Source: Chloroflexota bacterium
Lineage (GTDB): Bacteria > Chloroflexota > Dehalococcoidia > DSGV01
DNA: 45,078 nucleotides
NCBI GenBank assembly: GCA_021787985.1
Contig: JAJYLG010000002.1
Location: 1 to 45,078 of the forward strand
Direction of reading: 5' to 3'
Numbering within the stretch: the first letter of the stretch is position 1; each line of letters starts with the position of its first letter. Shown here one piece after another: positions 34,655 to 38,545 of the stretch. The notes beneath the pieces are model-generated. The model was not told the origin of the DNA. It saw only the letters and a list, made by a program, of their open reading frames with translations, and did not search any database. A program made the position numbers and the translations under genes.

Positions 34655-36517
34655 GTGTTGTTCTCACGCGCGACGGCGGCCGCGTCCTCGGGTCTGCCGG
34701 CAGGCGCGACCGCCGACCGGCGCGCTCGCGCGGCGCGGCCGACTGCTGCCTGGCCGGTGGCAGCGGCGCTGGCGGTAGCCGCGGCGCTCGGGCTGCCCTC
34801 GCTGCTCTGGCCGCTGGGTATCGACCAGGGGATCTTCGCCGTTTTCGCGCGCGCCATGCTGCACGGCGAGGCGCCCTACCGCGCGGTGATCGACATCAAG
34901 ACGATCGGCATCTACGCCCTGTACATCGTCCCGCTGCTCTTGCCGCTGCCGTACGCTCACGCGCTGCGGCTCGTGGACTGGGTCTACCAGCTCGCAACCC
35001 TCGCCGCGCTGGGCGCTCTCGCCTGGCGCCTATGGGACCGACGCGTCGCAGCTCTGGCCGTGTTGCTGGCGGCGCTCGCCTACTGGCCGCGTTTCGGCTG
35101 GTGGAACACCGCCCAGGCCGAGAGTTTCGCGATCCTGCCCATCACCTTGGCGCTCCTGCTGGCGCTCAAAGCGACGGACGATTCGCCGGCGCGCTGGTCC
35201 TTGCCGGGGAAGGGTTGGCGCTCGTTGGCGGCGGGGCTTCTGCTCGGCTTCGCCGTGCAGGTGAAACTGCCCGCGGCCGCCTTTCTGTTCGCGCTGCCGC
35301 TGGTGGAATGGCTCGGTGGCTGGCGCGCAGGCTGGGGGCGGCGCCTCCTGCTCGCGGCCGCTGGCTTCGTCATCGTGCAGGCGGCGGGCCTGCTCTACCT
35401 CGTGGCCGTGGGCAGCCTGGGCGACTTCATCGCCGTGATGCGGGCGGCCACCGGCTACACGCGCCTGGCGGACGGCCATTTTGGGCTGCATCCGCCGCTG
35501 GACTATCGCCTCTATCTGGCGCGCGTCTGGCCGCTCTGGTTCCTCAACACCGTGGCGGTGCTTTACGTCCTTCCTGCAACCTTCGCCGTGGCCGATGCGC
35601 TGGCGCCCGACCGCCCACGCGCGACGCTCCTGGTGTGCGCGCTGGTGATACTGGGCAGCTTGGCGGTCTTCGCGCAGGACAAGTTCATCGACTACCACTG
35701 GCAGCTCGTCACGCCCTTCCTCGCCCTGCTCGCGGGGCGTGGTCTGATGCGGCTGCACGACCTCTTGTGGGCCCTGGTCCCCCGGATCCTGCCGCGGCTC
35801 GCGGTCGAGCTCGTCATCGTCCTCGCGTTGCTGTATGGCAGCCCCGCCATCACCCAGGGTGTCCACGGCATGTTCGATGACGCTCGCGTCTACTTTCAAC
35901 ATCCGGCGGAGGGCCATCGCGCGTTCTACCTCCGCTTCGGCGACCCAGGCGCCGGCGGCTTCTCGGTCGTCGGCACTACCGAGCTGGCGCGCTACATCCG
36001 TGCCCATACCCGACCCACGGACCGGGTCGTTATCTTCAACATGGGCGGTGCGGCGGTGCTGGTGGAGTCCCATCGCGAGAGCGCCACGAGCATCCTACCG
36101 AGCCTGCTGGCGTTCGCGGACTGGACCCCGCCTGGCTGGCGGCAGGCGTTTGTGCGTCAGGTCGAGGAGCGCAAACCGGCGCTGATCGCGATCGGCGGCG
36201 GCGATGCCGGCCCCTGGGTCACCGGCAACACGCTCGACTCGCGGGCGGCTTTCGAGCGCTGGCCCGAGTTTCGCGACCTGGTGCGGCAGCAGTACCGGCT
36301 GGCGGCCCACGTGCAGAACTACGATGTCTATCTCCGCGTCCGCCCATCCTCCGCCCGCGAGCGCGGCTCGAACCGCTACCGACGGTGGGCCGGATCCAGC
36401 CACTCCTGGATCCGGCAGGCGAGCCCGGTCAGCTTAACCACCTCCACGACGGCCAGGGGGAACAGCGACAGCGCGAGTACGCCAACCCACTCCGGCCCGG
36501 AGAGGGGATGGGTGTGA
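34655..36517 (+). CDS. GT39/ArnT-like membrane glycosyltransferase, 3' end run-on
   Basis: A 620-residue polytopic protein with about ten helices. The first periplasmic loop reads [21 protein letters not shown] followed by [12 protein letters not shown], the D-x-x-x-x-x-x-x-x-x-x-G-x-x-P-Y pattern of the PMT/GT39-like (glycosyltransferase RgtA/B/C/D) family, which use polyprenyl-phosphate sugars. The soluble C-terminal domain is at about 480-590. The last 45 codons are Ser/Thr/Arg-rich and overlap the 3' end of the convergent mini-ATPase gene by 142 bases; the natural stop probably stood near 36370. GTG 34655 is chosen on the promoter spacing, GTG 34640 being the alternative. Confidence 0.8.
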
Positions 36518-37053
36518 AAGGCCGGTTGCAGGAACGGCAGCTCACAGGTCGCCAGCAGCAGCCCAGCGGAAACGGCCACAGCCAGCAGGAGCCAGCGATT
36601 GCCGCCCGGGCGGGTGAGCGGCCGGGTGGCGCTGCGGAATCCGAACGCGGCGAGGCGGCCCTCCTGGACGGCCGCCACGATTGAGGCGAAGTTGTCGTCC
36701 AGCGGCACCATGTCCGACGCCTCGCGCGCGACCTCGGTGTCGCCGCGGCCCATCGCCACGCCGACGTCGGCGGCGCGCAGCGCGGGCGCGTCGTTGACGC
36801 CATCGCCCGTCATTGCCACGACCTGGCCGGAGCGGCGGTAGGCGTGCACCAGCCGCAGCTTGTGCTCGCTGGTGGCACGGGCGAGCACGGTCGCGCGGGT
36901 GCCGACATCGGCAAGCCGCGCGTCGGCCTCGCCCGCGGACAGTCCGCGCTGCGGGTCCACCTCCAGCAGCCGGGCGACCTCCAGGGCCGGCAGAGCGTGG
37001 AAGCCCCGACCAACAGGTGTGGGCGTAGCGTCCCGCCGTGTCGGGCGTGCCAT
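36376..37053 (-). pseudogene. Internally deleted P-type ATPase (225-residue frame)
   Basis: The frame joins three pieces of a P2-type ATPase that is normally about 900 residues: the N-terminal cation-ATPase domain ([20 protein letters not shown]), the end of the P domain ([38 protein letters not shown]) and the last two helices ([38 protein letters not shown]). Missing are the actuator TGES, the phosphorylation site DKTGT, the nucleotide domain and most helices. Both joins keep the frame and no stop occurs. It cannot pump ions; it is most likely a decaying gene, less likely a small regulatory protein. ATG 37053 lies behind a weak site; TTG 37068 would add five residues. Confidence 0.75.
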
Positions 37054-37210
37054 GCTCCAACCTTGCAACAGGTGAGGCGCCCGCGTCAGCCCATGGCGGG
37101 CGCGGCCCAGCGGGTAAGAACGTCACTCAGACCGCGGCCCATTCCGGCCGACCAGATGCCGCGCGAGCGGCGCGAACCTGGGCAGGTTCCGCCGTGACGC
37201 GGTCGGCTGA

Positions 37211-37216
37211 TATGAT
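37211..37216 (+). promoter_or_regulatory. -10 (TATGAT) upstream of the antiporter leader
   Basis: TATGAT matches the -10 consensus at five of six positions. TTGACA at 37216-37221 overlaps it and could instead be a -35 for a weaker downstream -10. With TATGAT, transcription begins near 37223, leaving a leader of about 110 bases before GTG 37331. Confidence 0.45.
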
Positions 37217-37249
37217 TGACAGAGATCGGTACAGTGGGCGGAATCGCGG

Positions 37250-37333
37250 CCCGCGGCGAGACGCGGGCACCCTGGAGGAGCCTGTCAGCGGGCTCCTCTT
37301 TTGCGCGGCCGATTGTGGAGGAGGCAGCCGGTG
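37250..37333 (+). promoter_or_regulatory. Leader RNA with terminator/anti-SD switch before the antiporter gene
   Basis: Hairpin 1: CCCGCG (37250-37255) with CGCGGG (37262-37267). Hairpin 2: GAGGAGCC (37275-37282) with GGCTCCTC (37291-37298), followed by TTTT (37299-37302), a textbook intrinsic terminator. The Shine-Dalgarno GGAGGAGG (37317-37324) repeats the GAGGAG of the terminator's left arm, so CTCCTC (37293-37298) can pair with either. No known riboswitch class is evident from its sequence. Confidence 0.5.
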
Positions 37334-38545
37334 CACGGCGGCGGCAACGTCTTGTGGGAGCTGTTCATCGCGCTGCTGGTCGCGCGCCTGGCGGGTGAGG
37401 CCTTCGCGCGTTTGCGCCAGCCCGCGCTGCTGGGCGAGGTGCTGGCGGGCGTCCTGCTCGGCTCGCACGCGCTGGGCGTCATTGGCACGTCGGCGGACAG
37501 CCGCGCGGTCTTCGCGGCGCTCTCGGAGATCGGTGTGGTGCTGCTCCTGTTCGAGGTGGGGCTGGAATCGCCCATGGGCGAGTTCCAGCGCACGGGCGCA
37601 CGAGCCGCCGCGGTGGGCGCGGCCGGCGTCGTGCTGCCGTTCGTGCTGGGAGCGTGGACCATCGATCTGCTGGGCCACTCGACGCGCGAGTCGCTGTTCG
37701 CCGCCACCGCCATGGTCGCCACCAGCACCGGCGTGACCGCCCGCGTGCTGCGCGATCTGCATGCGACCCGCAGCCGCGTCTCCCGCATCATCGTCGGCGC
37801 GGCGCTCGTCGACGACGTGCTCGCCCTGCTCCTGCTGGCGGTGGTGTCGCAGTTGGAGGGAGGCAGCGCCGCGGCGGTGGCGCTGATCGTCGTCCAGGCG
37901 CTGGCGTTCATCGCTGGCGTGCTGGCGCTCGGGCTGACGGCCTTCCGGCGCTATTCGGTCCGGCTGGCGCGCATCGGCGGGGCGAGCACCGCGTTCTGGA
38001 TCGCCCTCATGCTGGCGCTCGGGCTGGCGGCCGCCGCCAGCGCCGTGGGGCTGGCGGCCATCATCGGTGCAGCGCTGGCCGGCGTGCTCCTCTCCGAGTC
38101 GGAGGAGCGGCGCGCCATCGAGCGTGGCATCGCGCCGCTGGTGGCCTTCTTCGTGCCGTTCTTCTTCATCGATGTGGGCGCGCAGGTCGACCTGAACGTG
38201 CTGCGCTCGCCGGGCGGGCTGGCGTTGGCCGCGGTGGTCACTGGTGTGGCGATCGTGGGCAAGCTGGCCGGCGTGCTGGCGTCAATGGCGGGCACCCGCT
38301 GGCTGGAGGCGCTGTCGGTGGCGTTCGGCATGGTGCCGCGTGCCGAGGCTGGGCTGGCGATCGCCGGGCTGGGCCTGGCCGATGGGCTGATCGGGCCCGA
38401 CATCTTCGCCGCGGTGGTGACGATGAGCGTCGTCACCACGCTGGTGGCCCCGCTGATCGTGGCGCCGCTGGTGCGCCGCCTGGTGCCGCAACCGCCGCCC
38501 CTCGCGCATGGACCGTCGCCGGCCGGCGACGTCGCCCGGCCCTAG
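37331..38545 (+). CDS. CPA2-family monovalent cation/proton antiporter
   Basis: A 404-residue membrane protein with about 12 helices. The N-terminal LRQPALLGEVLAGVLLGSHALG and LSEIGVVLLLFEVGLE are hallmarks of the Kef/NapA-type Na+(K+)/H+ exchangers (CPA2), and the unwound-helix region has ATAMVATSTGVTARVL followed by VGAALVDDVLALLLL, where VDD corresponds to the ion-binding aspartate pair; PRAEAGLAIAGLG closes the core. No RCK (TrkA-N) regulatory domain is attached. GTG 37331 is set by GGAGGAGG six bases upstream. Expression may be governed by the structured leader. Confidence 0.92.
   Translation: MHGGGNVLWELFIALLVARLAGEAFARLRQPALLGEVLAGVLLGSHALGVIGTSADSRAVFAALSEIGVVLLLFEVGLESPMGEFQRTGARAAAVGAAGVVLPFVLGAWTIDLLGHSTRESLFAATAMVATSTGVTARVLRDLHATRSRVSRIIVGAALVDDVLALLLLAVVSQLEGGSAAAVALIVVQALAFIAGVLALGLTAFRRYSVRLARIGGASTAFWIALMLALGLAAAASAVGLAAIIGAALAGVLLSESEERRAIERGIAPLVAFFVPFFFIDVGAQVDLNVLRSPGGLALAAVVTGVAIVGKLAGVLASMAGTRWLEALSVAFGMVPRAEAGLAIAGLGLADGLIGPDIFAAVVTMSVVTTLVAPLIVAPLVRRLVPQPPPLAHGPSPAGDVARP

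Follow-up and report, generated by a model that had tools for sequence, protein, structure and literature searches.

A leader RNA upstream of a CPA2 antiporter gene in a Chloroflexota genome is probably a divergent member of an uncatalogued attenuator family

Layout of the antiporter locus

The window, i.e., the whole stretch of 45,078 nt analyzed here, belongs to an isolated MAG whose nearest relatives among the compared genomes share only its class. Its plus strand carries a gene for a Na+/H+ exchanger-domain protein (Na_H_Exchanger, PF00999, E 7e-61), the best NCBIfam match of which was the CPA2 subfamily (TIGR00932) with 171.9 bits, a score below the cut-off. The features of the leader and of the gene are listed in Table 1. 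The box TATGAT at 37211-37216 is preceded one base earlier by TG, which makes an extended -10 element, and transcription is predicted from the sequence to start at about 37223. The TTTT at 37299-37302 lies shortly 5' of the gene start, and promoter and terminator bracket about 80 nt. The left flanking gene is on the minus strand, and no plus-strand gene lies directly upstream of the leader. The elements described in a first-pass annotation of this DNA were all present: the TATGAT box, two consecutive hairpins and a terminator with TTTT before the GTG, the occurrence of GAGGAG both in the terminator left arm and in the Shine-Dalgarno sequence, and the absence of a plus-strand gene directly upstream that could be terminated.

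Table 1. Features of the CPA2 leader and gene, with positions in the window.
Feature	Position	Strand	Basis
Extended -10 promoter element TGATATGAT	37208..37216	+	sequence
Pseudoknot S1, 5' strand UCGC (partner 37256-37259)	37244..37247	+	exhaustive family-geometry fit
Hairpin 1, GCCCGCG/GCGAGA/CGCGGGC	37249-37268	+	sequence and folding
S2, 5' strand GCCCGCG (hairpin 1 left arm)	37249..37255	+	folding, family-geometry fit
S1, 3' strand GCGA (within hairpin 1 loop)	37256..37259	+	family-geometry fit
Loop L3, GA	37260..37261	+	alignment, family-geometry fit
S2, 3' strand CGCGGGC (hairpin 1 right arm)	37262..37268	+	folding, family-geometry fit
Conserved segment GGAGGAGCCUGUC, including the terminator left arm (family GGWGGAGRCUGYC)	37274..37286	+	alignment with family
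Hairpin 2, GAGGAGCCTG/TCAG/CGGGCTCCTC	37275-37298	+	sequence and folding
Intrinsic terminator, 10-bp GC-rich stem GAGGAGCCUG/CGGGCUCCUC, loop UCAG, UUUU	37275..37302	+	folding
Shine-Dalgarno sequence GGAGGAGG	37317..37324	+	sequence
CPA2-type Na+/H+ exchanger-domain protein, 404 aa, GTG start at 37331	37331..38545	+	PF00999, TIGR00932

The folding energy of positions 37223-37307 gave a z-score of -2.15, with 2 of 200 shuffles equal or better, and a longer leader piece gave -1.79 (9 of 200). Since the energy of the leader barely beats that of shuffled sequence, it is unconvincing by itself, and the case was built on comparison, for which the evidence is convincing. A generic scan, which required 5 or more T in 8, missed the terminator because its T tract is short. 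The exact hairpin pattern occurs only once in the whole genome.

The divergent gene on the minus strand (36379-37053) encodes an internally shortened P-type ATPase, in which an N-terminal cation-ATPase motif runs straight into the final part of the HAD domain and a C-terminal membrane part, the catalytic middle being absent. Longer P-type ATPase frames, 38-61% identical to the shortened one, occur elsewhere in the genome. From its sequence, the shortened gene looks like a decayed paralogue.

Identification of an RNA family upstream of antiporter genes

No convincing homologue of the leader was found at the DNA level, as a search of 393 genomes of the class returned only GC-rich matches of 25-39 nt, which were judged to be chance. 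CPA2 genes with 41-51% identity were gathered from 60 relatives, 393 genomes of the class and 400 genomes of the phylum. Several of their leaders carried a -10 box, a hairpin with the loop CCC(G)UAUCC, and the arrangement GGTGGAGACTGC-loop-GCAGTCTC-TTTTT. Because the CCC of the loop pairs with an upstream GGG, the motif is an H-type pseudoknot, and it is followed by GGWGGAGRCUG, which doubles as the terminator left arm. Examples of S1 are GGGGU/ACCCC, CGGGA/UCCCG, GCGGG/CCCGC and GGAAG/CUUCC.

The window was kept out of every covariance model. The model R1, built from four leaders, was run blind against 400 genomes of the phylum and recovered further members, and R2, built from 18 sequences, recovered more from the window's own class. 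The resulting alignment A6 contains 22 members from 18 genomes and 11 families. The downstream genes encode CPA2 (8), NhaA (3), NhaD (1), a CitMHS/MamN-like transporter (1), an MrpA-type antiporter subunit (1), SPFH (2), NfeD (1) and a CBS-domain protein (1), and for four members the role of the downstream gene was unknown, untested or unreadable. NhaD and the one NhaA checked of the three scored above their NCBIfam cut-offs, while the MrpA-type subunit had a Pfam match and NCBIfam matches below the cut-off. Seven of the eight CPA2 cases came from the inspection of CPA2 leaders. For the members found by the RNA models alone, 7 of 15 preceded cation/proton antiporter-type genes, a fraction that in our judgement no plausible base rate would come near.

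In a tree of 38 CPA2 proteins, members with the motif were clustered (6 changes, with 1 of 500 shuffles as low) and did not form one clade. The window protein has a long branch and no firm position in this tree, which therefore does not reveal the history of its leader. The first-pass annotation had expected close homologues to keep the stems if these were regulatory. The motif is indeed lacking from the majority of the distant homologues, 27 of the 38 in the tree; yet the blind searches place it at unrelated antiporter genes, and it is therefore no accident of a few CPA2 leaders.

Neither the window leader nor the loci of its relatives gave an Rfam 15 match to the motif, even at permissive thresholds, which agrees with the earlier failure to recognize a known class such as ydaO, fluoride, Mn or T-box. 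In the open full-text literature, which leaves subscription papers outside its coverage, no description of the motif was found and only the Na+-I and Li+-I/II papers came up.

Several members differ from the common form. L104 and L116 both come from genome G542, and one of them precedes an SPFH gene; they retain GGTGGAGACTGC and S2, but their loop differs and has no UAUC, which may make them a variant in specificity. In L006 (1125-1194, minus strand; genome G007 of the window's class) the motif precedes the CitMHS/MamN-like transporter gene, which is divergent from a CPA2 gene of the same subfamily; the leader of that CPA2 gene itself carries GGAGGAGCGGAAGCTCCTC without a T tract. L158 (genome G740) was reached via a contig titled Gemmatimonadales MAG. 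It is a convincing-looking copy of 31 bits with a long T tract at a contig end, with the gene downstream unreadable. The motif may extend beyond a single phylum; alternatively, the MAG may be mixed.

Other candidates were set aside. A second match in the genome of the window, G000:C41 with 28.7 bits, was put down to chance, as it lacks a T tract and no gene start is clear downstream of it. The low-scoring L109, L110, L112-L114, L120, L122, L140, L150-L155 and L160-L162 were judged to be chance or plain terminators, and L111, before a SmpB-like gene, has GGAGGAGCCGG and a terminator with no clear pseudoknot and was left out. L068, L007 and the leaders of family f59 carry hairpins of other kinds and stayed outside the count. 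In f59, L063, L064, L065 and L067, upstream of CPA2, have CCTGC..GCAGG around GCCGGAGGC..GCCTCCGGC, then TTTACG; this block is common to related species and distinct from the new motif, and L064 has the outer arms without the inner hairpin. L068, just 5' of CPA2, has GGCCCGTAGC..GCTACGGGCC-TTTTT ending directly before the likely ATG, which is either the terminator of the upstream gene or a different leader attenuator. Genome G429 has two near-identical 87-nt elements (L108 and L117) with GGGACAGTC/GGCTGTCCC and TTTTT before similar sequences; these matched R1 weakly (about 26 bits) and are probably a different repeated leader.

Structural evidence for the pseudoknot and terminator

In A6, 98.4% of the cells of S2 and the terminator were paired, compared with 73.7% in shuffles, and the covariation score was 0.614 against 0.189, a value reached by none of 500 shuffles. 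When the partner columns were slid by 1-3 positions, the covariation was lost. The alignment was fitted to S2 and the terminator, which favors those helices, whereas S1 was left out of the model and is therefore the more independent test. Two-sided changes were found in 7 of 7 pairs of S2 and in 4 of 5 pairs of S1. Of the two comparisons proposed in the first-pass annotation, the covariance search of Rfam gave no known class, and that of homologous antiporter leaders found covarying stems, which bear out its view of the leader as a cis-regulatory element of terminator type.

A direct search found a bulge-free pseudoknot of the family geometry in 13 of 18 leaders. For 11 of these 13, none of 300 shuffles each did as well; for L104 and L069 the figures were 1 of 300 and 10 of 300. 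The bulge-free fit was absent from L103, L119, L118, L078 and L116, and in the first four of these single bulges may be read by eye in the sequence. The terminator left arm is the most conserved linear element and lies 1-5 nt 3' of the pseudoknot. The best -10 candidates in the relatives lie 40-69 nt before GGWGGAG, most of them at 45-65 nt. L3 is about 6 nt long in most relatives, with GUAUCC or UUAUCA. The terminator takes in the conserved GGWGGAG element itself in the window, L003 and L158.

Fit of the window leader to the family

In the window, R1 listed a single match, which was the leader in the sense orientation, at a weak 10.8 bits. R2 scored the leader at 21.6 bits (E 2.7e-4), the best of 37 listed matches in the 45 kb with filters off, and R3 gave 21.3 bits with the upstream part aligned differently. 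About 35 other CPA2 loci showed no obvious motif, and of these L003 alone, which is the closest homologue and belongs to the window's class, gave a sense match in the leader (14.3 bits).

An exhaustive search identified the pseudoknot with S1 UCGC/GCGA and S2 GCCCGCG/CGCGGGC. None of 1000 dinucleotide shuffles reached its score, and 12 of them could form any pseudoknot at all, with the permitted ranges of L3 and J3 set wider than in the core members. L003 has a similar short-L3 pseudoknot, with 33 of 1000 shuffles equal or better. An alternative pseudoknot of the window, GUGGG/CCCGC with UCGCG/CGCGG, fitted more poorly (3 of 300 shuffles) and was rejected.

The distance from the end of the -10 box to GGAGGAG is 57 nt, the same as in L145, L106 and L158, and a cation/proton antiporter gene lies downstream. 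GGWGGAGRCUG forms the left arm of the 10-bp terminator stem of the window, followed by the U tract, with one mismatch (C for R) and in a different stem register. The linear sequence of the conserved segment resembles GGAGGAGGCUGUC, found before the MrpA-type and SPFH genes, but the stem register of the window differs and takes in GAGGAG itself. The conserved L3 (G/U)UAUC(C/A) is absent from the window, as it is from L104, L116 and L006. The L3 of the window, which is shorter than that of its relatives and differs in sequence, is the main departure from the family. Two nucleotides would be tight across an S1 of 4 bp, and S1 of the window may have only 3 bp. Since the window lacks the UAUC loop, its leader is read as a divergent member of the family, with some chance of decay.

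Proposed function and alternative explanations

The architecture, its covariation, its place between promoter and gene, its recurrence at unrelated antiporter genes and the fit of the window were established by computation. The leader probably belongs, in a divergent form, to a family of RNAs that attenuate transcription and that no catalogue yet lists; these RNAs are likely to be riboswitches. With NhaA, NhaD, CPA2 and Mrp in the gene set, the signal would be Na+ or something linked to it, and a candidate riboswitch for such a signal is the most likely reading of the leader. Na+ would be the first ligand to consider, Li+, pH or another ion being possible, and the RNA would sense it directly. 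The first-pass annotation had suggested control by ions or by c-di-AMP; the former fits a gene set for Na+/H+ exchange, whereas the latter is not specifically suggested.

In the mechanism that we propose, the nascent RNA past the promoter would fold the H-type pseudoknot directly 5' of GGWGGAGRCUG. The signal would stabilize a pseudoknot that holds GGWGGAG, so that the left arm would be withheld, the terminator would fail and the antiporter would be made; without the signal, the terminator would form. The pseudoknot-held GGWGGAG and the terminator would then be mutually exclusive. No clear nested antiterminator is visible in the family leaders, and a nested base-paired one was rejected as a general solution, as AGUCUC is able to pair with the left arm in L071 only. 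The ON direction is suggested by analogy with the riboswitches already known for Na+ and Li+, in which high ion levels increase expression (PMC9337991, PMC9646797).

The switching mechanism of the first-pass annotation did not hold, though its core idea of a cis-regulatory attenuator or riboswitch RNA did. In that mechanism the right arm of the terminator swaps with a stem masking the Shine-Dalgarno sequence, as the shared GAGGAG would allow. The alternative stem has -11.7 kcal/mol and a z-score of +0.41 against shuffles, and the terminator is much more stable. The complementarity was also not seen in the relatives, where right arms such as GCAGTCTC mismatch their Shine-Dalgarno sequences and the conserved part is the left arm GGWGGAG; moreover, any stem containing GGAG fits a Shine-Dalgarno sequence. 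We regard this swap as extremely improbable. An ordinary terminator or small-RNA gene that stands before the antiporter by chance would account for a promoter and terminator bracketing about 80 nt, and among sRNA families Xoo2 matched the leader weakly, below the threshold (17.4 bits, E 0.45). The lack of a plus-strand gene directly upstream to terminate and the recurrence of the element directly 5' of antiporter genes in many genomes make this very unlikely.

A regulator protein or other trans factor could also recognize the pseudoknot and GGWGGAG and control termination, with no ligand bound directly by the RNA. The same conserved architecture and gene set would be expected, and a strong conservation of GGWGGAG beyond the needs of pairing would suit a protein site as well. 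On the other hand, the genes are unlinked, no shared regulator gene adjoins them in the short stretches read, and the known Na+ and Li+ leaders of antiporter genes are riboswitches (PMC9337991, PMC9646797), so that we think such a factor rather improbable. The window copy could instead be a former member in decay, which has kept the terminator and a hairpin, lost the sensing loop and now merely attenuates its gene. Its L3 is short and without UAUC, its T tract is short, and the adjoining ATPase gene is an internally deleted remnant, so that decay is known at this locus. Yet a new S1 (UCGC/GCGA in place of GGG/CCC) fits, as maintained pairing would give; the window has also preserved GGAGGAG-CUGUC, the distance to the -10 box and an intact gene, and L003 has the similar short-L3 form, with weaker support. 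Decay is therefore considered unlikely, if less so than any other alternative.

Returning to the riboswitch reading, we tentatively put forward, as a possibility somewhat short of an even chance, a new alkali-metal riboswitch class, most likely for Na+. Its aptamer would be a minimal H-type pseudoknot, with the 3' segment serving as the left arm of its own terminator, and the class would control CPA2, NhaA, NhaD and Mrp antiporters together with SPFH/NfeD genes, the window being a loop variant with possibly altered specificity. Natural RNAs that sense alkali ions are few (Na+-I/II and Li+-I/II). If the proposal is true, the family would be an independent solution to ion sensing, a compact and structurally unrelated pseudoknot before at least four Na+/H+ antiporter families. 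It would also offer a first entry point to the regulation of ion homeostasis among a largely uncultured group of bacteria, and would tie SPFH/NfeD membrane proteins to the same signal as the antiporters. Given its small size, the pseudoknot lends itself to rapid in-line probing and to the determination of its structure.

Comparison with known regulatory RNAs

The window leader was not matched by the Rfam models of ydaO, fluoride, yybP-ykoY and T-box. There is a superficial likeness to T-box leaders, as the window has GGGCGGAATCGCGG, compared with GGGTGGAACCGCGG, 5' of the terminator; a T-box was rejected, since the terminator neither overlaps nor pairs with this stretch and no Rfam T-box match was found. 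Compact H-type pseudoknots serve as sensing folds in the preQ1-I, SAM-II and fluoride riboswitches, and some of them overlap the expression platform. Their conserved sequences and genes differ from those of the new family, and they had no Rfam match in the window or its relatives.

The Rfam models of Na+-I, Li+-I and Li+-II had no match in the window at gathering thresholds, in the leader at E<=10 or in the loci of its relatives. Like the new family, Li+-I (nhaA-I) and Li+-II (nhaA-II) regulate genes for cation transporters, nhaA among them, but they are mostly thought to act on translation and have no sequence or structure match to the new members (PMC9646797). The Na+-I riboswitch (DUF1646 motif) and the Na+-II variants of nhaA-I resemble the new family in preceding Na+-related transporter genes, including kefB/napA-type genes and nhaD (PMC9337991, PMC9646797). 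Some Na+-I copies and Na+-II variants also have an intrinsic terminator, and their genes are switched on by Na+ (PMC9337991, PMC9646797). For these riboswitches the published description gives two helices, P1 and P2, with conserved clusters in the P2 loop and at the P1 base (PMC9337991, PMC9646797), whereas the new family is built on an H-type pseudoknot with CCC-UAUC and GGWGGAG.
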